DNA of 64,000 bases, taken from positions 1-64,000 of the forward strand of contig NZ_QPLT01000018.1 of assembly GCF_003666015.1 (NCBI RefSeq), given 5' to 3'. The notes beneath the pieces are model-generated. The model saw only the letters and a program-made list of their open reading frames with translations, was not told the origin of the DNA and searched no databases. The DNA comes from Halorubrum sp. Atlit-26R (GTDB taxonomy: Archaea; Halobacteriota; Halobacteria; Halobacteriales; Haloferacaceae). Below are positions 24,906 through 52,637 of the stretch, piece by piece (position 1 is the stretch's first letter; each line of letters opens with the position of its first letter). A program made the translations under genes and the position numbers.

Positions 24906-25604
24906 ATGTACACTCGCTCCCGACGACCGACCGCGGATCTCCCAGAGCTCACGCCGGGTGTCACGCTCGTCGACGTTGACGACGATCTCGGCGTCACCCC
25001 GGTCCAGGCGCTCCTCCTCGATCAGGTTCTGGGCGGTGACGGACCGGCATTCTGGGTCGATGGCGCGAATCAAGCGAACACGACGCGGCTTCGTGAACTG
25101 GCCCCGAGCGACCGCGTCCTTGACCGCGTCAAGGTTGCCCGCGGATTCACCCCACACCAGCACACGTCGCTCCTCGACCGGCTTGCCGGACGACTCGACG
25201 CGCGGGACTCCCCGTCGCTCGTCGTGGCGACCGGGCTCGACGGGATGTATCGGGGCGCCGATATCGAGGGCGAGCTCGCCAAGCAGATGTTCATCCGGGC
25301 GATCGCGTCGGTCGCCCGAATCGCCCGCGTTCACGACGTGCCGGTGATCATCACCCGGTGTCGAGAGGACGAGTTCTCGCGCCCGCTCCGGCGCGCTGCG
25401 GGGACGCACCTTCAGTGCCGGGCGACGCCCTTCGGCCCGCGCTTCGAGGACGCAGCGGGCGACGTGGAGACGCTCGTCTACCATACGGACGACGGCTGGA
25501 TGCAGACGACGCTGGCGTACTGGCAGGAGGTTCTCGAACACCGGGCTCGGATACACGAAGCGTCGACGCTCGAACGCGCGGCCGGCCCCATTGGAGTCCA
25601 GTAA
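24906..25604 (+). CDS. RecA/RadA-like protein of the PolB2 cassette
   Basis: 232 residues. The layout follows the RecA-like fold without a clear P-loop: PGVTLVDVDDDLGVTPVQAL, FWVDGANQANTTRLRE where the Walker A strand would be, SLVVATGLDGMYRGAD as a Walker B-like strand, and VPVIITRCREDEF. This is the RadA-like partner found beside haloarchaeal PolB2. Lack of a canonical GxxxxGK[S/T] suggests it binds but does not hydrolyse ATP, or has lost the activity. It overlaps the next gene by one base (TAATG). Confidence 0.75.
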   Translation: MYTRSRRPTADLPELTPGVTLVDVDDDLGVTPVQALLLDQVLGGDGPAFWVDGANQANTTRLRELAPSDRVLDRVKVARGFTPHQHTSLLDRLAGRLDARDSPSLVVATGLDGMYRGADIEGELAKQMFIRAIASVARIARVHDVPVIITRCREDEFSRPLRRAAGTHLQCRATPFGPRFEDAAGDVETLVYHTDDGWMQTTLAYWQEVLEHRARIHEASTLERAAGPIGVQ

Positions 25605-25861
25605 TGGGCCGGACGAATCCGACCTATCGCGACCAGTTGAGCGCGATCGAAGACGAGTGGGGTGCGTACCGCCAGGCGCTTCGGCGACAGGATCAGGGCA
25701 TCTTCGACCACCTGTTCGTGTACGCTCGCGACCACGCCGACGCCGCCTGGAACCTCAACCACGCCGACCCGCTCGCGCCGATCTGGATGGCGATCGCGAT
25801 CGAACAGGACCGCCGGATTACGGAACTGGAAGCGCGGATCGACGACCTCACCGACGAGTAG
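25604..25861 (+). CDS. 85-residue helical protein between RecA-like and PolB2 genes
   Basis: Starts at an ATG that overlaps the previous TAA and ends two bases before polB2. The product is helical and acidic (RDQLSAIEDEWGAYRQALRR, HADAAWNLNHADPLAPIW) with a coiled-coil tail (DRRITELEARIDDL). It is recognisable only as a member of the PolB2 cassette. It may bridge the polymerase and the RecA-like protein, which is inference from position. Confidence 0.75.
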   Translation: MGRTNPTYRDQLSAIEDEWGAYRQALRRQDQGIFDHLFVYARDHADAAWNLNHADPLAPIWMAIAIEQDRRITELEARIDDLTDE

Positions 25862-25863
25862 CC

Positions 25864-28065
25864 GTGACCCTCACGCTGGACTTCCTCGACGACGGGCGTG
25901 TCGCCCGGTGGACGCTCACCCCGGACGGCGTCGCACGTGAGGTTCGCGAGGCGTACAACCCGACGCTGTTCGTCGGTGACGCACCAGCCGACCTATACGG
26001 GCGGACGGGCGGCCCTTCGCCGTCACCGCCGGCACGAGACGGCCTCTCGGACGTGCTCGCTGACCTCCGGTCATTTCTCGACGGGCAACAGGCGGTCGCC
26101 GGTCTCGACGTCGAGTCCCACCGGCAGACGTTCCGGACGGATGCTCGGCCGCTCCTCCGCGTCGACGCCGCCTCGATCGAGGCCATTCGGACGATCGCAA
26201 AGCGGGTTCGGCAGTTCGACCAGCCGGATACGTTCACCTGCTACAACATTGATTTTACGCGGCAACTGCGATACTGCCTCGAAACAGACACGCCGGCCGC
26301 GCCCGACCGATCGGTGCGTGACCTTCGGACGCTCCACCTCTCGTTTCCGAGTCACGAGTCGGGAATCGAGTCGCTCCCGCAGCTCACCGTCGACGGCGAC
26401 CGAGTCGGCGCCTCGCCTCGCGACGTGGTGGCGGGGGTTCGGGAGGTGCTTACAGAGCGCAATCCCGACGTACTCGTCGTCTCGACTGCCGATCTGGTTC
26501 CGTTACTGTTCGAGGCGGCCGACGCGTACGGTGTCGAATTTACGCTCGGACGGGAGGCAGGGTACACCAAACTCGCTGGCGAGTCGACGTACACCTCCTA
26601 CGGCAACGTGGGCCACTCGCCGGCCCGGTACGCGGTCCCCGGCCGGGTCATCATCGACGAGTCGAACTCGTTTTTCTATCACGAGTCCGGGCTGGAGGGT
26701 TGTCTCGACCTCGTGGACCGCTCCGGGTTGCCGCTGCAAGAACTCGGCTGGGCGTCTATCGGCCGCGTTTTGACGGCCATGCAGATTCGCGAAGCTCGGT
26801 CGCGTGGCGTCCTGGTCCCGTGGCGAGCGTGGCGCCCGGAACTGTTCAAATCGGCGTCGACACTGGATACCGCCGACCGCGGTGGGACCACGTTCGCCCC
26901 CGACGTCGGCGTCCACGAGGACGTTCACGAACTCGATTTCGCGTCGCTGTACCCGAACATCATCCGGACACGGAACATCTCGCCCGAGACCGTCCGGTGC
27001 GGCTGTTGTGAGACCGACGACGTGCCGGGCCTCGGCTACTCGATTTGCGAGGAGGATGGGTATCTCCCCGAGGTACTCGGCCCGCTGATCGACGCCCGGA
27101 GTGACATTAAGGCGGAGATTCCCGACGCCGACGGCAAGGAGCGCGAGCGGCTGGAGGCCGCCTCGTCAGCGATCAAGTGGATCCTCGTGTCCTGCTTCGG
27201 GTATCAGGGCTTCTCGAACGCGAAGTTCGGCCGGATCGAGTGTCACGAGGCGATCAACGCCTTCGCCCGTGAGATTCTCCTCGACGCGAAGGCCGCGCTA
27301 GAAGAGGCGGGATGGCGGGTGGTCTACGGCATCGTCGACTCGATCTGGGTGACGCCCGCCGACGGTCGCGAGCAGCGACCACTGGAGGAAGTTGCGAGCG
27401 AGGTGAGCGCGGAGGTCGGCATCGAGTTAGAGTACGAGTGTGCGTTCGAGTGGGTGGCGTTCTGTCCGATGCGGAACTCCGAATCGGGCGCGTTGACGCG
27501 CTACTTCGGGAAGCGGCGCGGTGAGGAATATCCCGAAGCGGGGCTCGGCGACGCGATCAAGACGCGGGGCATCGAGGGGCGGCAGCGCTCGACGCCGGCG
27601 TGGGTCGAAGACGTCCAGAGCGAGGCACTCCGCGTGTTCGACGAGTCGCGATCGCCGGAAGCGGTCTGTGACGTGCTTCGGCGCCGGCTTCGCGAGCTCC
27701 GAGAGCGCGAGGTCGATCCCGCGGCGCTGGTCGTCGACAATCGCGTCTCGAAGGACGTGGACGACTACTCGATGGAGACGGTCACCGTGGCCGCATTGAA
27801 ACGCGCGCGGATCGAGGGCGCCGGGTTGGCACCGGGACAGACTGTCCGGTACGTTGTCGTCGACGCCGACGCTCGCGGCGCCGCACGCGTCCGCCTTGAG
27901 TACGAGGACTTCGACCGGTACGACGCCGGGTGGTACGAGGACGCCGCTGTGCGAGCGGTTGAGAGCATACTGGCGCCCATCGGATGGCGCGAGGGAGAGA
28001 TCCGGCAGTACCTCAGCGGAACGAGCGACGAGACGCTGGCGGGATTCGTGGACGGGTCGTCCTGA
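25864..28065 (+). CDS. polB2: family B DNA polymerase, PolB2 type
   Basis: 733 residues from a GTG. Motif A is HELDFASLYPNII, motif B is IKWILVSCFGYQGFSNAKFG, and motif C is YGIVDSIWV, where most family B enzymes have YGDTDS. The second Asp of motif C, the metal ligand, is kept. An exonuclease-like start VAGLDVESH is seen near residue 77, but the other exonuclease acids are not obvious. A CGCC pair (VRCGCCETDD) may bind zinc. It is the third gene of a tight cassette and lies just upstream of an origin. Probably a repair or accessory polymerase. Confidence 0.88.
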   Translation: MTLTLDFLDDGRVARWTLTPDGVAREVREAYNPTLFVGDAPADLYGRTGGPSPSPPARDGLSDVLADLRSFLDGQQAVAGLDVESHRQTFRTDARPLLRVDAASIEAIRTIAKRVRQFDQPDTFTCYNIDFTRQLRYCLETDTPAAPDRSVRDLRTLHLSFPSHESGIESLPQLTVDGDRVGASPRDVVAGVREVLTERNPDVLVVSTADLVPLLFEAADAYGVEFTLGREAGYTKLAGESTYTSYGNVGHSPARYAVPGRVIIDESNSFFYHESGLEGCLDLVDRSGLPLQELGWASIGRVLTAMQIREARSRGVLVPWRAWRPELFKSASTLDTADRGGTTFAPDVGVHEDVHELDFASLYPNIIRTRNISPETVRCGCCETDDVPGLGYSICEEDGYLPEVLGPLIDARSDIKAEIPDADGKERERLEAASSAIKWILVSCFGYQGFSNAKFGRIECHEAINAFAREILLDAKAALEEAGWRVVYGIVDSIWVTPADGREQRPLEEVASEVSAEVGIELEYECAFEWVAFCPMRNSESGALTRYFGKRRGEEYPEAGLGDAIKTRGIEGRQRSTPAWVEDVQSEALRVFDESRSPEAVCDVLRRRLRELREREVDPAALVVDNRVSKDVDDYSMETVTVAALKRARIEGAGLAPGQTVRYVVVDADARGAARVRLEYEDFDRYDAGWYEDAAVRAVESILAPIGWREGEIRQYLSGTSDETLAGFVDGSS

Positions 28066-28755: not shown

Positions 28756-29982
28756 ATGTCGCTGTTTGAAACCGACACTAACGTCTTCGAGAACGAGCGG
28801 GCGTTGATGGAAGAGTGGGTTCCTGATCGCCTCCCCAAGCGCGAGCCCGAATTAGAAGAAATCGCGAAGAGTTTTCGGACGACCATCCGATCCGGGATCG
28901 AGCCGAAGAACGTCCTCATCTCCGGGAAGACCGGGCAGGGGAAGACCGTCACCGCCCGTGTCGTGTTGGAGGAGCTTCACAACTACTGTCAGGAGGAAGA
29001 TATCGACCTCCGGACGTTCGAGGTGTCGTTGAAAGACGTGAACACCGCTTATCAGTCCGTCGGGAAGATCCTCACCGCGATCGAGCCCGAAACGACGGAG
29101 CGGCCGAAGGGGCTTTCGCTCACCGATCTTAACGAGCGAATGTTCCGCCGCCTTGATGAAATCGGCGGATACGTCGTGTTCTTCCTCGACGAAATCGATA
29201 ATCTCGGATCTGACGACGACCTGTTGTACCAACTCCCACGGGCGCGATCGAACGGGAAAATCACGAACGCGCACCTTTCGATTATTGGCATCTCGAATGA
29301 CCTCCAGTTCAAGCAGGACCTATCCGCAAAAACGAAGGACAGCCTCTATGAGAACGAGGTCCACTTTGACCCATACAACGCCGACGAGCTTCGCTCTATT
29401 CTGTATGACCGTGTCGACACCGCGTTCAAACCCGACGCAGTCGATGACGGGGTTGTTGAGCTGGCTGCTGCGTGGACAGCAAAGGACACCGGCTCTGCGA
29501 GACAGGCGATCCGCCTCCTTCATGAAGCCGGAGATATTGCCTGCGTTGAGGGAAGCGATATCGTTACTGAGGCGCACCTCGACGATGCCCGAGACGAGTT
29601 GGAGGAGGTGAACATCGTCAACAAGCTCAAGGATTTAACGATCAACGATCAGGCGCTCTTGATGGCGCTGGCGATACTCGAATCCCGCGGAGACACGCCA
29701 GTGCGGACGAAAGAGGTCTATTCGGAGTACAAACGGGTCGCTGACGCGATCGGGACGAACCAACTCACGTCGCGGAGTATCCGCGATAAGCTCACGAACC
29801 TCGATACGTACAATCTGGCGATGACCCACAAGCGGAAAGGCGGCGTACAGGGCGGAGATTATTATCTCTCGGAACTACGCGTGAACCTCGATTCATTGCT
29901 GGAAGGATTCGAACACGTCGAAGAATTTGATGGGATCGTCCAAGACGTGGATACGTTCAGCCGGCAGAGCACGCTATCGTAG
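28756..29982 (+). CDS. Orc1/Cdc6 replication initiator
   Basis: 408 residues. Walker A is LISGKTGQGKTVTARV, Walker B is VVFFLDEIDNLGSDDDLLYQ, sensor 1 is HLSIIGISNDLQF, and sensor 2 is GSARQAIRLLHEAGD. A C-terminal winged-helix domain (QALLMALAILESRGDTPVRT, then the wing KRKGGVQGGDYY) contacts DNA. It binds the ORB repeats just upstream and loads the MCM helicase. Haloarchaea carry several such genes, each linked to its own origin; this one seems to serve the origin at 28.3-28.7 kb. Confidence 0.93.
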   Translation: MSLFETDTNVFENERALMEEWVPDRLPKREPELEEIAKSFRTTIRSGIEPKNVLISGKTGQGKTVTARVVLEELHNYCQEEDIDLRTFEVSLKDVNTAYQSVGKILTAIEPETTERPKGLSLTDLNERMFRRLDEIGGYVVFFLDEIDNLGSDDDLLYQLPRARSNGKITNAHLSIIGISNDLQFKQDLSAKTKDSLYENEVHFDPYNADELRSILYDRVDTAFKPDAVDDGVVELAAAWTAKDTGSARQAIRLLHEAGDIACVEGSDIVTEAHLDDARDELEEVNIVNKLKDLTINDQALLMALAILESRGDTPVRTKEVYSEYKRVADAIGTNQLTSRSIRDKLTNLDTYNLAMTHKRKGGVQGGDYYLSELRVNLDSLLEGFEHVEEFDGIVQDVDTFSRQSTLS

Positions 29983-33544: not shown

Positions 33545-33952
33545 TCACTTCTCGCCGAGTTCTGAAAGGCGGGCCTGAATTTCCTCAGCATCTGCCTCAG
33601 AGAGTGCTTCTACACCAAACTGGATGAGTAGCGGGTAGAAGTGGCGATTTTTCTTGAACTCATCCTGGCCCGCCTTGCGGAGCTTCAGCTGGGACTCGAG
33701 GTAGATATCCTCCATCCCGTCGAGGACATCGTCGGGAATGTAGATCGTCCGCCCGTTCCACTCGTCTTTGATGTTCGTCTTCGTTTTGCTCGTTTCGTTC
33801 GTTTCACTCGTTGAAGTCGATTCAGTCGTTTCGGTCGATGAACTGGTTTCCACCGTTTCACTCACCTCACTCGTTTCGCCGGAATCAACCTCATCGTCCT
33901 CCTCTTCGTAGTTGCCCTCGATGCCAGAAGCATCACCCCACCCGTCGCTCAT
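33545..33952 (-). CDS. ParA partner, ribbon-helix-helix centromere-binding protein
   Basis: 135 residues. The acidic N-terminus leads into a Ser/Thr/Glu tail of three-residue repeats (ETS-EVS-ETV-ETS...) at about residues 25-57. The C-terminal domain (GRTIYIPDDVLDGMEDIYLE, RHFYPLLIQFGVEAL) looks like a ribbon-helix-helix DNA-binding fold. A disordered tail plus RHH is the layout of ParG-type partners of ParA. It overlaps parA by four bases. The repeat tail is encoded by 9-bp DNA iterons like those upstream of parA. Confidence 0.78.
   Translation of the reverse strand: MSDGWGDASGIEGNYEEEDDEVDSGETSEVSETVETSSSTETTESTSTSETNETSKTKTNIKDEWNGRTIYIPDDVLDGMEDIYLESQLKLRKAGQDEFKKNRHFYPLLIQFGVEALSEADAEEIQARLSELGEK
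33781..33879. repeat. eleven 9-bp iterons inside the ParA-partner gene
   Basis: Successive 9-mers such as TCGTTTCGT, TCGTTTCAC, TCGTTGAAG, TCGATTCAG and TCGTTTCGG follow one another without gaps. They encode the three-residue repeats of the partner protein and match the arrays upstream of parA in period and core (TCGTT). Confidence 0.75.
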
Positions 33953-34767
33953 GCTTCCACCTCCTCAGGTGCGGCCTTCTCAAACGTCTCGTCGAACAGG
34001 TCGGCGATCTCGTTGAACAGGTCGCGTGCATCCTCGACACGCTGGTTCTCCTTACCGAAACCGAAGACGGACACCCCTTCGCCAATCGACTGGGAGAGAT
34101 CGGTTCGCTTTGGGATCTCGAACACCGGGAGCGAGTACGCCGACTTGATCTCCTCGATCGTGTCTCGGTGCTCGCTGTTCTGTTCGACACGGTTACAGAC
34201 AATCGCAAGCCGATTGATGTCGCCGTATGCCGGTTCGAGCGAACTCAGTTGCTTTGCGAAAATCTGGAGACTGTTGGCGTTGAGCTTCTCTGGAATGACG
34301 GGGATGACGACGTTGCCGGTCGCGACTAGGGCGTTGTCGGTGAGGACGTTCAGGGATGGCGGCGTGTCGACAATGATGTAGTCGTAGTCCTTGTCGAGCT
34401 CGTCGAGAGTCATCTCCAGTCGTTCTCGGCTCTTGGGCGCTTCAAGCAACGTCTGGATGTTCTTGTTGTTCGCGAGCTTCTCGCTGGCGGGGAGGATGTC
34501 GAATTCCTCGTGCTCGACGATGATGTCGTTCACCGACTCCATCTGATCGAAGTCGAGGACGTCGAACAACGTGGTACGGTCGGTATCGTAGTACAGATCG
34601 TTGTAGCCAAGCGAGCAGGTGAGCCCCCCGTGGTAGTCGATGTCGACCAGAAGGACGTCATGGCCTCGGGCAGCGAGTGCGCCGCCAGTATGAATAACGT
34701 CAGTTGTCTTCCCCGCGCCTCCTTTCTGATTCGCCACCGTGATTCGTGCGGTATTGGTGTCGGTCAT
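33949..34767 (-). CDS. parA: ParA partition ATPase
   Basis: 272 residues from the ATG at 34767; longer frames would translate the iteron array. The deviant Walker A is VANQKGGAGKTTDVIHTGGA, Walker A-prime is VLLVDIDYHGGLT, and Walker B is DYIIVDTPPSLNVL. It drives segregation of the replicon by ATP-dependent binding to the nucleoid. It is the first gene of a two-gene unit with the RHH partner. With an origin 6 kb away it forms a plasmid-like maintenance set. Confidence 0.92.
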   Translation of the reverse strand: MTDTNTARITVANQKGGAGKTTDVIHTGGALAARGHDVLLVDIDYHGGLTCSLGYNDLYYDTDRTTLFDVLDFDQMESVNDIIVEHEEFDILPASEKLANNKNIQTLLEAPKSRERLEMTLDELDKDYDYIIVDTPPSLNVLTDNALVATGNVVIPVIPEKLNANSLQIFAKQLSSLEPAYGDINRLAIVCNRVEQNSEHRDTIEEIKSAYSLPVFEIPKRTDLSQSIGEGVSVFGFGKENQRVEDARDLFNEIADLFDETFEKAAPEEVEA

Positions 34768-34772
34768 TATCT

Positions 34773-35046
34773 TCGTTTCCCTCGTTGTATTAGTTTCGTT
34801 CGTTTTGGTCGTTCCGTTCGGTGCGTTCGGTGAGAGTGTTTCACTCGGTGCGAGGAGTACTACGGTATTAAAACCAACTGCTCGCTCCACTCGTTGAGGC
34901 AAACGCACTCGTTGCCATCAACGCATTCGTTCTGTTCGTTATGTTCGTTATTTTGTTTTGTTCATCGAGTAGAGGTCGCCAGTCCGTTCCTCAGAATGCG
35001 TTCAATACATTCGTTTTACTCGTTCCGTTCATTTTGCTCGGTAAAA
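34773..35046. repeat. three arrays of 9-bp iterons upstream of parA, candidate centromere
   Basis: Array 1 (34773-34853, nine units), array 2 (34882-34962, nine units) and array 3 (34984-35046, seven units) keep strict 9-bp phase with core TCGTT or CTCGTT. Examples are TCGTTCTGT, TCGTTATGT and TCGTTATTT in a row. Such iterons in front of parA are the expected binding site of the RHH partner. The parA promoter must lie within or beside array 1. Confidence 0.75.
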
Positions 35047-46328: not shown

Positions 46329-49300
46329 CTATATGTCAAGTGTCTGCTGACCTTCCAACTCGAACGTCAAGTAGTGCGACTCAATCCCTTCCCACGACTT
46401 ATCGAGTTCATCCTGAATAGCTACGGTTTCTATCAATGCCCGAATAATGCGGCAGAACTTCCGAATATCACTACTCGACAGAGTCTCTCCGATGCGGTTC
46501 TGAATCCATTTTTTCACAACCGGTCTATCGCCGATCTCATACTCCCACACATCTTGTGGAACCGACGCAAAGTACTGGTCAGAATTAATGTACAGCCGTT
46601 CTTTTTCCTCATCATAGTGCCGATAATACTCCCCTGTGCTCTCCGAGACCTCGTTTTCCCCGCCACCATCTTCCTCGCTGTGTAACTGTACCCCTGGGGA
46701 TCCCAAGTCGGGGTGGTCGAGTATGTGAAGCTGCGCTAACTCTTTGCCTTGCGAAGCGAACTTCCGGAAGAGAGAGCCGTCTTCTGGGAACGGAATTTTC
46801 GGAAAGTCCGTCTCCATGAACTCTGAGTATTTCAGCCGGTACGTACGCGTGTACAACACGGCGTACGTGTAGTTGAACACGTCCTCGGGGGTCACATCGT
46901 CGCCGTAGGTCTCGGAGAGCTGTGAGACGATACTGGGATTAATATTCGTCTGCCGTGCGGTGTCTCTGATCTTTGAGTGTGTTTCATCTGGGACGTTCGG
47001 ATACAGATATAGTGGGAACTGGTAATTCACCTCTTTCGTGGACACCCCGTGGTGCGTCATCAACCCGTCTGTCACGAACGCATGGTCGAACGGCGTGCGT
47101 TCCGTCCGCCGCGGCACGGATAGGCTAATATTCTCTCCCGCAAGCATATGCTTTGATAAGCGGCCAGCACGCCGATGGACAGCGACGTGCTCGTCGTAGA
47201 CAGTATATTCTTTGTCGAACGGCGATGTCTGAACTTGGACGATTTTATCGTCCCAGTTCGCAGTCTCCAGATGCTCTTTCGCGTCGCTGTAGATCCACTG
47301 TTCTTGGCTACACAGATTGAAGTATTCTCGCGCTTCGTTTTCCGTGTCCGTTTCGAGTAGCTGTCTGACTTTCTGCTTCTGGCGTTCAGGGGTGAGTGAG
47401 ATAGCGAACTGGTTGTGTGTGGTTACGATGCCGGGTGTGGGGTCACCGTATTCCGAGAAGATTTGGGGCACCTTCACCCACTCGTGGTACGAATCGGCGA
47501 GTTCCTGGTCACGGGGAACAAATAGGTAGTGCGGATCTCGGGGAGTTACTTCCTTCCAGTCTATATCGTTCATATCGCTGCCGCTCAACGTCTCGTACTT
47601 TTTTTCTCGCGTCCCCCACAGGTCGCTATGGTAGACGTCTGCGTACTCCTCATCGTCTGTATTGTCGGTTTTCACGAAGATACTGATGGCGACACCCTGC
47701 TGGATGTCGAACACGTTCTCATCAGTTCCACCTTCCGGGGGTTGCTCCAGTCGGTTTGAGTTCCCGTGTAAGTCAAGCACGTAGATCTCGTCGAACTCCA
47801 ACAACAGCTGCTCGCGCATCCCCATAAACGTTGGATTGTCAATATATGCGTGGTTAGTGATGTACCCGAGCGTACCTTCAGCAGCGTCAGAGAGCTTCCA
47901 TTGGGCCCATCGAATGAATTTCACGTAGTCGTCGTGTAGCCACTTTGCCTGCCCACGCTTCTGTAATTCTGGATATCCCTCTTTGTAGTCGTTAACGAGA
48001 GATTCTATCCACTCACCTTGGTTTTCTGAGTGTCCCGAGTACGGTGGGTTCCCTAATATAGCGAGAACCGGAGTGTCTTCTTTTACCTCGTGCGCCATTT
48101 CTGCTTCCTCCGCGAGCGACGACGCGAACGGGAGGTGCGTCTGGTCTGCTTCCTCTGGTTCCAACGTGTTAGTCAGGTACAGCTGAACGCGGTCATCATC
48201 TTCAAGTTCGTATCCCTGTTCTTCGAACAGAATCGCCATTTTCAGATGCCCGATAGTGTACGCTGCAACGAGTAATTCGAACGAATAGAAGTCATCCAGA
48301 ACATGATCCGATAGCAGCGCAGATACTCCACCGCGTCCGTATTTCTCCGCGTACTCCTCGACTGCTAGGCGCGTCGCTGCCGCCGTGAAGGTCATCGTCC
48401 CTGCCGCAGGGTCGAGAATAGTGACATCTTCGTCTGCGAGACCGTCATCGCGGTCATGGTCAGTCTTCAGCACAGAGTTCACCGACTGCGTAATCCACTC
48501 CACTACCGGTTCTGGGGTGTAGTACACACCTTTCTGCTGGCGTGTTTCTGGATCGTACTCTTCAAGGAAGGTTTCGTAGAAGTGAACAAGCGGTGTGGAT
48601 TCAGCTCTGTCTGCGTAGAACTCGCTTAGGATATCGTCTACGTTCGCGCCAGATAGGACATCTGAGACGTCATCGACGATCCACTCGATCTCTGCCGGTG
48701 GTTCAGATGTGGAAATGAAGTCGAAAATGTCCTTCAGGATCCCGATAGTAGAGGGGATAGTGTCGGCAGCATCGGTACGGCTGAACTCGCCCGACACACG
48801 TGTTCGAGCGGTGAGCATTCCGTACGTGATCGTCTGGCTGTAGATGTCTGCGAACTCTCGCCGATCGATATCGGGCATCAGGTAGTCTTGGAACGCTTCG
48901 TAGAACCCCAGGATGTGCCCCTCCTGTCCGGCCATCTCTCGCCCGAGTTCTTGAATCACCACCTCTCGCATGAATGAGGTTCGTTTTGCAAGCTCTGTTG
49001 CCAACTCCCTCGCGGACTCGATTTCTGGTCGAGAGAACGAAAAGAACTGCTCAAACAGGGTTTCGAGATCATCAGTGTTGACAGCGTTGGGAGCGTCCCC
49101 AAATCTAGGGATTTCCGCTGGGTCTGCGATCTCTGCCTCAGCGACTTGTTCGCCGTTACGATAGAGTCGGAACTCAACAAAATTCGTCAAAATAACATTC
49201 TCAAACGTATTCCGATATCTGGTAAGTTGTTCTCTCTCCTCAATAGTATCGAGTGGTTGTCCGCTCGGTAGTTTTGCCTCAATGTACCCCGTGACTTCGT

Positions 49301-49508
49301 TTGTGCCACTCCACACCCTGAAGTCTGGGTTTCCGCCATCTGTTGGAGAGGGGAGAGTGGTGACTTGAACATCGTCGTGCCCATTTTCATCGGCGTGTTC
49401 TTCCAGTAAATTGCTGAGATCGCTGTAGTAACTTTCTTCGCGCGTGTCGCCAGTGCTCGCAGTATCGGTGAGTGAATCGAGGTACTGCTGAATGTCGGTC
49501 ATTATCAT
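46329..49508 (-). CDS. single-chain restriction-modification enzyme (type IIG / ISP-like, no helicase)
   Basis: 1059 residues; ATG 49502 is an alternative start. The N-terminal nuclease is of the PD-(D/E)xK type (GGNPDFRVWSGTNEVTGYIE, then AKLPSG). The N6-adenine methyltransferase has motif I as DPAAGTMTF and motif IV as LGNPPYSG. The C-terminal third resembles the target-recognition domain of type ISP enzymes. No helicase motifs lie between nuclease and methylase, unlike true type ISP. One protein would therefore both cut foreign DNA and methylate host DNA. It is divergent from the PUA/EVE-like gene. Confidence 0.85.
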   Translation of the reverse strand: MIMTDIQQYLDSLTDTASTGDTREESYYSDLSNLLEEHADENGHDDVQVTTLPSPTDGGNPDFRVWSGTNEVTGYIEAKLPSGQPLDTIEEREQLTRYRNTFENVILTNFVEFRLYRNGEQVAEAEIADPAEIPRFGDAPNAVNTDDLETLFEQFFSFSRPEIESARELATELAKRTSFMREVVIQELGREMAGQEGHILGFYEAFQDYLMPDIDRREFADIYSQTITYGMLTARTRVSGEFSRTDAADTIPSTIGILKDIFDFISTSEPPAEIEWIVDDVSDVLSGANVDDILSEFYADRAESTPLVHFYETFLEEYDPETRQQKGVYYTPEPVVEWITQSVNSVLKTDHDRDDGLADEDVTILDPAAGTMTFTAAATRLAVEEYAEKYGRGGVSALLSDHVLDDFYSFELLVAAYTIGHLKMAILFEEQGYELEDDDRVQLYLTNTLEPEEADQTHLPFASSLAEEAEMAHEVKEDTPVLAILGNPPYSGHSENQGEWIESLVNDYKEGYPELQKRGQAKWLHDDYVKFIRWAQWKLSDAAEGTLGYITNHAYIDNPTFMGMREQLLLEFDEIYVLDLHGNSNRLEQPPEGGTDENVFDIQQGVAISIFVKTDNTDDEEYADVYHSDLWGTREKKYETLSGSDMNDIDWKEVTPRDPHYLFVPRDQELADSYHEWVKVPQIFSEYGDPTPGIVTTHNQFAISLTPERQKQKVRQLLETDTENEAREYFNLCSQEQWIYSDAKEHLETANWDDKIVQVQTSPFDKEYTVYDEHVAVHRRAGRLSKHMLAGENISLSVPRRTERTPFDHAFVTDGLMTHHGVSTKEVNYQFPLYLYPNVPDETHSKIRDTARQTNINPSIVSQLSETYGDDVTPEDVFNYTYAVLYTRTYRLKYSEFMETDFPKIPFPEDGSLFRKFASQGKELAQLHILDHPDLGSPGVQLHSEEDGGGENEVSESTGEYYRHYDEEKERLYINSDQYFASVPQDVWEYEIGDRPVVKKWIQNRIGETLSSSDIRKFCRIIRALIETVAIQDELDKSWEGIESHYLTFELEGQQTLDI

Positions 49509-50630: not shown

Positions 50631-52637
50631 ATGATTGTTTCTCGTGCCCGAGTACAGTATTTCCGCTCCATCGTGGATACAGACTGGGTTGAACTACAGT
50701 CAGACATTACTACGCTGCTGGGGAAAAACGAGAGTGGGAAAAGTTCGTTTCTTAAGGCATTAGAGGCCGTTTCGCATGATCAGCCATTCAAAGAGCGCGA
50801 CCAGAATTACAACCAAAGTCCCGACGAGACTCCTTTCGAAATGGTCCGTGTTGAACTTATCTCGGAGAGAGATACTGATTCGATAGAAGTGGGTCCATTG
50901 GAGTTCGATGATCCGATCCACGTTGTGAAGCTATCAAACGGCGATCGACGAGTTGAGTCAGGTTCTGGGGAGGCGATGATATCTCGTAGTGCTCAAAAAA
51001 GAGTCCTGAGAGAGAATGTAGAAGAGGCATGGCAAGTTCTAAATAACCTAAGAAACCAGAACACCGGGAACTTCCGGAAACGCTACGACCAAAACGTTCA
51101 GCAGAACATAAACAATATCAGAAACAATGGGGAAGACAATTCTCTCCAGTGGAATCTGAATCAGTTGGAGAATGCGATCTCCGGTCTGGATACTCTTCCA
51201 GAAATCGATACTGGGGAAAGCAATCAGTCGATTGAAGAGATAAAGATAGATCTGAAGGAGGCTTATTCAGAAGCTGAGGCTGTTTCCGATTTCGATGTGT
51301 CGTCGATACTACCTTCCATAGTCTACCACGACGAATTTGACCGAATTACGGACACAGCAAATATTAACACCTTAGACCAGGCTGAGAATCGAACCTTCCG
51401 GAACCTGCTGGAGCTCGCGGAAATTGACTACGAGGATTTTGATGATAAGGAGGACTTAGCGCAGATGCGTGAACTTCGGACGGCAGGGACTGATGTGTCG
51501 GGCGAAGTTAATTCTATTTGGGATCAAAAATCCGTTGACGTATCAATCACCAACCGCAAGAACAAGTTCTTGGTCCAAATCGCAGATAGCTCCCTGAAAG
51601 GAGGGAAATCTGGGGAGGATGTCCAGCGAGATCTTGTTCCTCCGTCGAGTAGGAGCGAGGGCTTCCAGTGGTTCTTCTCGTTCTATACAAACCTCAGCGC
51701 GGAGACTAATGGAGAAGATGGAGATAAACTGATTTTACTGGACGATCCAGCTGTCGTGCTTCACCCAGAAGGCAAGAAAAATTGGCTCGATGCGATCGAA
51801 CAGATGGCTGACAATGCTCAATTCGTCTATTCTTCCCACTCCCCGTTCTTAATCCGGAAGGAACACCCCGAAAGAATCAGACTCGTCGAAGACTTACCCG
51901 AACAGGGGACGAAGATCACACGCGATTGGGCAGAGGGAGATTCGATGGCACTGAAACCACTTCGGAACGCCTTGGGAATTGGACTGGGAGACTCGCCGTT
52001 CGCCTCAAAGAGGCAGATCTTGGTTGAGGGGGTGACGGATTATTATATTTTCACTGCGCTGAATAACTATCTCAAATCGGTCGGAATGAATTTCATAGAC
52101 TCTGACGAAGTGTCGATTATGCCGACCAACGGCGCGCCAAATATGCCGAATGCGGCGAAGTGGGTAGCATCTGAGGATTTTTCATATGTCATCTTACTAG
52201 ATAATGACCAAGCCGGGAAAGATGCTAAAGAGGAAATCATTGAACAGCATCAAGAGGTCGATCCTGAGAGAATCGTCCTACTTGAACTCGATGACGAGAG
52301 GCCTGAGTTCCGGATTGAATTAGAGGATCTGTTTTCCACGGAATTCTATGTAGAATCGGTCAACAGGTCCTATTCAGAGAAGTTCACGGGTGAATTTTCC
52401 GAGATATCGCTCGAACACGACGAGAGTGAGAATATATATCATCTCAATGAGGTGGAGTACAAGGGCAGAAAGATCACGTCCAAATTGGAAGAAGTACTCA
52501 GTAATCAGGGAATGGGTAATTTTGATAAAGTACTTGTTGCTAATGAAGTACAAGATCGGTTGAACAGCGGAGATGTTGACGAGTCAGATATCACAGCGTT
52601 CCTTCCTATTTTTGAAAAAATTCGGAAGCTCACCTAA
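50631..52637 (+). CDS. OLD-family nuclease (ATPase plus TOPRIM)
   Basis: 668 residues. The ABC-type ATPase has Walker A LLGKNESGKSSFLKALEAVS, a long coiled-coil middle and Walker B LILLDDPAVVLHPEGKKNWL, then the His loop SSHSPFLI. The C-terminal TOPRIM nuclease shows the Glu in ILVEGVTDYYIF and the acidic pair in VILLDNDQAGKD. OLD proteins cut phage DNA or act in abortive infection. No UvrD-like helicase follows, so this is a stand-alone (class 1) type and not Gabija. Codon use is AT-rich compared with the flanks. Confidence 0.88.
   Translation: MIVSRARVQYFRSIVDTDWVELQSDITTLLGKNESGKSSFLKALEAVSHDQPFKERDQNYNQSPDETPFEMVRVELISERDTDSIEVGPLEFDDPIHVVKLSNGDRRVESGSGEAMISRSAQKRVLRENVEEAWQVLNNLRNQNTGNFRKRYDQNVQQNINNIRNNGEDNSLQWNLNQLENAISGLDTLPEIDTGESNQSIEEIKIDLKEAYSEAEAVSDFDVSSILPSIVYHDEFDRITDTANINTLDQAENRTFRNLLELAEIDYEDFDDKEDLAQMRELRTAGTDVSGEVNSIWDQKSVDVSITNRKNKFLVQIADSSLKGGKSGEDVQRDLVPPSSRSEGFQWFFSFYTNLSAETNGEDGDKLILLDDPAVVLHPEGKKNWLDAIEQMADNAQFVYSSHSPFLIRKEHPERIRLVEDLPEQGTKITRDWAEGDSMALKPLRNALGIGLGDSPFASKRQILVEGVTDYYIFTALNNYLKSVGMNFIDSDEVSIMPTNGAPNMPNAAKWVASEDFSYVILLDNDQAGKDAKEEIIEQHQEVDPERIVLLELDDERPEFRIELEDLFSTEFYVESVNRSYSEKFTGEFSEISLEHDESENIYHLNEVEYKGRKITSKLEEVLSNQGMGNFDKVLVANEVQDRLNSGDVDESDITAFLPIFEKIRKLT

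Follow-up and report, generated by a model that had tools for sequence, protein, structure and literature searches.

The 64,000-nucleotide stretch of haloarchaeal DNA analysed here (the window) contains 9-bp repeats with a TCGTT core at two kinds of position, 5' of a parA gene and inside the coding sequence of the small gene that partners it. The question raised by this locus is whether the repeats within the gene are a DNA site, a repetitive protein segment, or both at once.

The product of parA matched Pfam AAA_31 (1.4e-35), being a Walker ATPase without a long N-terminal extension. It also matched NCBIfam ParA_partition at 4e-29, a value below the curated cut-off of that model. The gene order, parA and then the small partner directly downstream, was the same in the relatives. 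The features of the cassette are collected in Table 1.

Table 1. The par cassette and its repeat arrays (window coordinates).
Feature	Position	Strand	Remarks
parA, Walker-type partition ATPase	33949..34767	-	start ATG 34767, stop 33949; 273 codons including stop
partner gene, 135 aa, predicted centromere-binding protein	33545..33952	-	ORF; ATG overlaps parA stop
intragenic 9-bp iteron array, about 10 TCGTT-core units	33781..33875	+	partner residues about 26-58
upstream array 1 (proximal), 8-10 units, reaching parA start codon	34764..34852	+	
upstream array 2 (middle), about 6 units, in part alternating with 9-mers that do not match	34882..34956	+	
upstream array 3 (distal), 4 units	35011..35042	+	

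An Orc1/Cdc6 replication initiator (28756-29982, plus strand) and a family B DNA polymerase (25591-28065, plus strand) are encoded within 9 kb of the par cassette, and the contig may therefore be a plasmid or an origin region. Elsewhere in the window, a Type ISP restriction-modification enzyme (Type_ISP_C, 1059 aa; 46332-49508, minus strand) adjoins an AAA_15/AAA_21 ATPase gene (50631-52634, plus strand), and the pair is possibly a defence island.

The TCGTT core on the plus strand corresponds to AACGA in the sense of parA and the partner gene. A unit census placed the intragenic cores at 33781-33857 and at 33871. The proximal block contained eight linked cores (34764-34831) with weaker units as far as 34852, and the middle block (34882-34949) five linked cores and one isolated core at 34909. 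When the whole window was scanned on both strands for 12-unit stretches with at least eight in-phase TCGTT-like cores, strongly phased arrays were found at two places only, 33728-33906 and 34720-34880, both on the plus strand. As a null for the phasing we generated 2,000 dinucleotide-preserving shuffles per array. None of the 2,000 matched the phasing of the proximal block (8 of 9 observed, shuffle mean 2.5), and the same was true of the distal upstream region (6 observed, mean 2.4) and of the intragenic array (9 observed, mean 2.6). The scan and the shuffles thus confirm the proposal, made earlier by a sequence-only reading, that 9-bp iterons lie both 5' of parA and in the partner gene. Its finer description held in part. 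Three upstream blocks were recovered, but they contain about 20 units (19 linked cores by automatic count) instead of 25, and the 11 units given for the partner gene became 10 or 11 (11 tail cores in the automatic count). The 9-bp phase is exact within blocks but not between the upstream blocks, where the steps from 34827 to 34891 and from 34945 to 35011 are not multiples of 9. Likewise, the TCGTT core recurs throughout, but several units carry one mismatch to it. Translation of the intragenic array on the minus strand gives x-[E/K]-T repeats; the frame is xxA ACG Axx, read as E/K-T-S/N/K, in agreement with the E-T-S type that had been described.

PLSDB contained 55 haloarchaeal plasmid records matching the region, and in 40 of them a single location covers at least 80% of it. 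About 40 close relatives were present in the genome collection and many more in a draw of 145 Halobacteria genomes, and one further record came from IMG/VR when it was searched with the partner profile. Some 60 haloarchaeal loci retain the cassette. Since the neighbouring genes differ among plasmids, parA, the partner and the arrays are a conserved unit. We grouped the haloarchaeal ParA proteins at 60% identity, with the family of the window as cluster C0. In nearly all C0 loci, which come from many genera, the upstream and intragenic arrays recur at the same places, and the third upstream array was found in many of these relatives. Unit number and tail length in relatives, a comparison that the sequence-only reading had called for, proved regular: over 60 C0 loci the mean number of linked upstream cores was 19.9 in the sense orientation versus 0.1 in antisense, the mean number of tail cores was 11.0, and most tails were 41, 44 or 47 residues long, that is, in steps of one unit. 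One record, CP132293, carries two copies of the cassette. In two loci (L033 and L036) the parA and partner reading frames look interrupted in the ORF scan, and these are possibly decaying copies.

We then scored each tail by the number of its 12-mers that agree in at least 10 of 12 bases with the upstream region of the same locus (400 bp plus 30 bp of parA, both strands). The window locus scored 49, as compared with 20.4 under synonymous resampling from its own codon usage (p = 0.0025), 12.8 for dinucleotide-shuffled upstreams and 9.8 for the upstreams of other clusters. Codon choice within the tail was distinctive. In C0, Glu is encoded by GAA in 84% of cases in the tail versus 28% in the rest of the partner and parA, and Thr by ACG in 65% versus 31%; the codon preceding an in-tail ACG ends mostly in A. 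Even for the window locus alone, the tail has a GAA:GAG ratio of 7:1, as against 11:29 outside it (Fisher p = 0.0026). In a set of 52 distinct C0 partner genes, ACG encodes residues 51, 54 and 57 in every sequence counted, whereas the codon before those ACGs varies in amino acid (GAA, AAA, GGA, CGA, GTA) and mostly retains the final A. Identity at codon positions 1, 2 and 3, calculated for the 20 C0 loci left after thinning to <90% identity, was 0.64, 0.75 and 0.80 before the threonines, in contrast to 0.91, 0.95 and 0.52 in the C-terminal domain. A DNA site inside a tolerant linker predicts this inversion, in which the third base before the threonines is kept above the first. The intragenic array is constrained as DNA, beyond the protein requirement.

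The iteron sequence differs between ParA clusters. That of C0 is AAACGA, read as E/K-T-S/N. In C1 it is TCAAAGA/TCAGAGACA, read as S-K/E-T, with antisense copies just 5' of parA; the upstream array there has only 3-4 units, and the intragenic array is still present. The C2 iteron is (A/C)AGAACG, whose AACG core is read as Asn (AAG AAC G) versus Thr in C0, and in one C2 locus (L198) the upstream CAGAACGCACAGAACG is the same as the tail CAG AAC GCA CAG AAC G, read as Q-N-A. C6 has a CCGGATAAC-type iteron read as T/P-D-N, and C7 has GAAACG. The iteron is TCAGATACA in L188 and ATTACGCAA in L212, while L178 carries AGTTCCAAACCTTC at the 5' codons of parA as well as in the tail of the partner. The tails of C6 (TDN), C10 (TSD/DTS) and C12 (TQI) each fit their own upstream. 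When tails were compared with upstreams in a 13 by 13 matrix, 11 of the 13 ParA clusters had their best tail match in their own upstream, although such a raw diagonal match is insufficient by itself, since C4, with its long acidic tails, ranks its own upstream first yet fails the synonymous test. We also looked for relatives that have the tail but unrelated codons and no 9-bp phase, and found none where the upstream array is clear. Related lineages encode the same S-[EK]-T repeat by other codons, and those codons fit the own upstream iteron with the 9-bp period kept.

Both the synonymous-resampling and the upstream-shuffle test gave p < 0.05 in 41 of 80 haloarchaeal loci, including 13 of 13 C0 loci; since the loci within a cluster are related, these per-locus p-values are not independent and cluster counts are the fairer measure. 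The passing loci belong to C0, C1, C2, C6, C7 and four singletons, together with single loci of C3 and C8. Among the 80 loci there was no pass on both tests in C4 and C5, the signal was weak or absent in C3, C5 and C8, and 10 of the 23 C1 loci failed one of the two tests. None of 56 non-haloarchaeal ParA controls (bacterial, archaeal and viral loci) passed both. Chance or composition as the source of the arrays is ruled out by the shuffles and these controls.

Among named elements, the virus ChaoS9, the phiH L segment and the plasmids pNG200, pHMA133 and pKBTZ02_38 passed both tests, and phiCh1 passed the upstream-shuffle test only. In ChaoS9, pKBTZ02_38 and C7, parA itself opens with the iterons (ATG AGT GAA ACG AGT GAA ACG), and therefore the array is in both genes there. 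Iterons at the parA start were observed at 1453-1500 in the ChaoS9 locus (L222), at 1450-1500 in L235, and in the upstream region of L128 and L132-L134; ParA thereby gains an N-terminal E-T repeat. On pNRC100 (L225, 25405-26169) a ParA gene lies beside gas vesicle genes, with no downstream partner gene annotated. Two further ParA cassettes of 43-44% identity in one genome (L127 and L128; G000:C17:74400-75176 and G000:C13:90017-90799) have different iterons, as expected for coexisting compatible replicons. In addition, the motif GTCTGACG(T/C)A recurs upstream of parA in many non-C0 clusters (L127, L077, L201, L222, L223, L229 and others), just before a TATA-like TTTAT/TTAAG element, and may be a promoter or shared operator element.

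Since the repeat varies between families, and does so jointly at both positions, one and the same stretch of DNA is probably both binding site and code. The central idea of the sequence-only reading, that a single DNA repeat would serve as a site and be translated as a disordered tail, is thus supported by codon tuning, third-base conservation and co-variation between lineages.

Alignment of the partner with 26 relatives revealed a conserved N-terminal MSDGWGDASGIEGNY motif, a disordered E-T-S linker and a C-terminal strand-helix-helix-like domain (EWNGRTIYIPD...). In the AlphaFold2 model of the partner, built with 27 relatives, pLDDT was <50 for residues 6-61 and about 90-95 for the C-terminal domain, which is modelled as an extended RTIYIP segment followed by helices at 74-93, 101-119 and 122-133. 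DSSP assigned no strand to the RTIYIP segment in the monomer model. An extended segment and then two helices is the order found in ribbon-helix-helix (RHH) proteins, which suggests an RHH-like reading of the partner. The best VIA-align match of the isolated domain, a weak one, was the RHH domain of plasmid F TraM (Z 4.2, 2.6 A over 53/53 residues). Pfam, NCBIfam and PDB searches gave no sequence relation to solved structures or a named family, and PHROGs gave only families of unknown function, of which phrog_26668 matched all 27 members. Because there is no sequence match and Foldseek returned no significant match for either the full model or the C-terminal domain, the assignment of this domain as RHH is tentative. 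The arginine finger of type Ib systems is not conserved, an Arg in residues 1-60 being present in 11 of 61 C0 partners; C1 partners have a conserved K/R-rich N-terminus, KRDRxPW. Between ParA clusters, identity in the seven-residue strand segment correlated with iteron similarity (rho 0.25, Mantel p = 0.0005), and C0 and C7, whose ParA identity is only 40%, have WNGRTIY in common and a similar iteron. This correlation suggests that the 9-bp repeat is read by the partner, which is most likely the centromere-binding protein.

How else could matching repeats have arisen in the two places? One possibility is that selection concerns the protein alone, favouring a flexible acidic E-T-S linker which lengthens through slippage; the DNA phase and the resemblance to the upstream arrays would then be by-products of low complexity and codon preference. 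An S-[E/K]-T linker character does recur in several lineages, and a 9-bp tandem tail repeat can occur without an upstream counterpart, as in the chromosomal-type C4 locus L186, where partner codons ~20-60 contain GCAGAGACC, read as AETAEA, and which served as a negative control. However, the match is lost under synonymous resampling though the protein is retained, the third base is conserved above the first, GAA is favoured only in the tail, and the differing residues of the C2, C6, C10 and C12 tails each fit their own upstream. The protein-repeat-only reading thus fails on three counts (synonymous resampling, codon position, lineage co-variation); it is largely refuted and very unlikely. Alternatively, gene conversion or slippage may copy the upstream iteron into tolerant linker codons, with only the upstream arrays bound in earnest. 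Such concerted evolution would account for matching arrays and repeat turnover, and the unit changes are indeed mostly of 9 bp, as the tail lengths show. Haloarchaea are polyploid, which favours conversion. Nevertheless, the cores are kept across many genera, and the synonymous bases are invariant while the adjacent bases vary, which looks like selection. Intragenic arrays also persist in C1 despite its short upstream array, and a protein that binds the 9-mer upstream should in any case bind it within the gene as well. We therefore regard this explanation as unlikely.

Least probable among the readings considered is that the repeats are replication-origin iterons or sites of a host factor, e.g. 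Orc1/Cdc6, rather than of the partner. An Orc1/Cdc6 gene does lie 4 kb off in the window, but the cassette and its arrays occur in differing contexts, with no Orc1/Cdc6 annotated within 8 kb (pNG600, a Halorientalis plasmid). Moreover, the iteron sequence changes along with the ParA cluster and follows that of the partner strand, which a conserved host factor would not explain, and the partition context provided by parA argues against a replication-origin role of the lambda type.

The explanation that we prefer, with a probability of roughly three in four, is a type Ib-like ParA/RHH partition system in which a direct-repeat centromere/operator, presumably bound by the partner, extends into the partner's linker. 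The N-terminal motif of the partner would contact ParA, and the strand of its RHH-like C-terminal domain would read the 9-bp direct repeat. By analogy with type Ib systems, partner dimers would coat the arrays side by side; upstream of parA this would build the partition complex and repress the operon, and the array would continue into the partner's own gene, in the linker-coding stretch. We infer that the partner binds the repeat, that the repeat functions as centromere, that the operon is autoregulated and that a single complex covers both arrays. Since 9 bp are three codons, the iteron can be translated in frame, and units can be gained or lost without a frameshift. The linker accepts any soft polar tripeptide, so the DNA site would largely dictate the linker sequence, and an array there would cost little. 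Somewhat better than even are the odds, in our estimate, of a more general statement: that the haloarchaeal par centromere is dispersed across the operon and embedded in the codons of its binder (in the ChaoS9/C7 type also in the 5' codons of parA), with specificity, site and linker evolving as one unit. If so, every iteron change would rewrite the binder's own linker, and the par cassette would be a module that contains and marks itself, able to drift in specificity towards a new incompatibility group, no separate site needing to follow.

Type Ib systems combine ParA, a small binder with a flexible N-terminus and an RHH C-terminus that represses the operon, and an upstream repeat centromere, which in pCXC100 consists of direct repeats only (PMC5016525). 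In pSM19035, arrays of 7-10 seven-bp repeats are bound by dimers, and full ATPase activation requires four or more contiguous units (PMC9499535). The haloarchaeal cassette resembles TP228 ParFG-parH, pSM19035 delta-omega-parS and pCXC100 ParAB in its small ParA and its small predicted binder with a flexible N-terminus. Its upstream repeat arrays, a candidate centromere, correspond to the type Ib repeat centromere, which lies upstream and overlaps the promoter region of the operon. On the other hand, the unit is 9 bp, a further array lies in the gene of the predicted binder and encodes its linker, the N-terminus of the window family has no conserved arginine, and the partner is without detectable sequence relation to solved type Ib binders. 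Since the arginine finger is not conserved and the RHH fold is weakly supported, we describe the system as working like type Ib and not as a full member.

In phage lambda, O-bound iterons lie inside gene O, and a flexible linker joins the two O domains (PMC6022878). The partner array is similar in that it occupies codons about 26-58, a disordered stretch between the N-terminal motif and the C-terminal domain of the putative binder. Lambda and its lambdoid relatives differ in that the gene encodes a replication initiator and has four 18-bp inverted-repeat iterons in one place, whereas the haloarchaeal locus is a partition cassette with 9-bp direct repeats upstream and inside, the sequence changing with lineage in both. 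The lambda origin in gene O is the nearest precedent for self-embedding, but in replication. In Sulfolobales, SegAB consists of an archaeal ParA and the RHH protein SegB, with sites upstream of segAB and some within it (PMC12284271). The present cassette likewise has an archaeal ParA, a tentative RHH partner and candidate sites upstream and within the operon, but SegB sites are scattered 13-bp palindromes, mostly intragenic genome-wide, and form no tandem coding repeat. Bacterial chromosomal parS sites inside parB/spo0J also place a centromere site in the gene of its own binder, but as a single palindromic 16-bp site without a repeat, which leaves the character of the encoded protein unaffected. 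Self-embedded iterons are thus already known from lambda replication, whereas for a partition centromere, be it a haloarchaeal one or an iterated one in the gene of its binder, we found no earlier report in the open-access literature. Passages of the ChaoS9 and phiH1 genome papers that mention ParA do not mention iterons.

Partition of haloarchaeal plasmids and haloviruses has hardly been studied. If our reading is correct, a repeat DNA site dictates the linker amino acids of its own binder, and this recurs with different sequences in many lineages; these many lineage versions make it testable by natural variation. The cassettes would yield candidates for the centromeres, the binding specificities and the incompatibility determinants of haloarchaeal plasmids and haloviruses (phiH and ChaoS9 among them), and they would illustrate clearly how selection at the DNA level and at the protein level can overlap within a disordered region.
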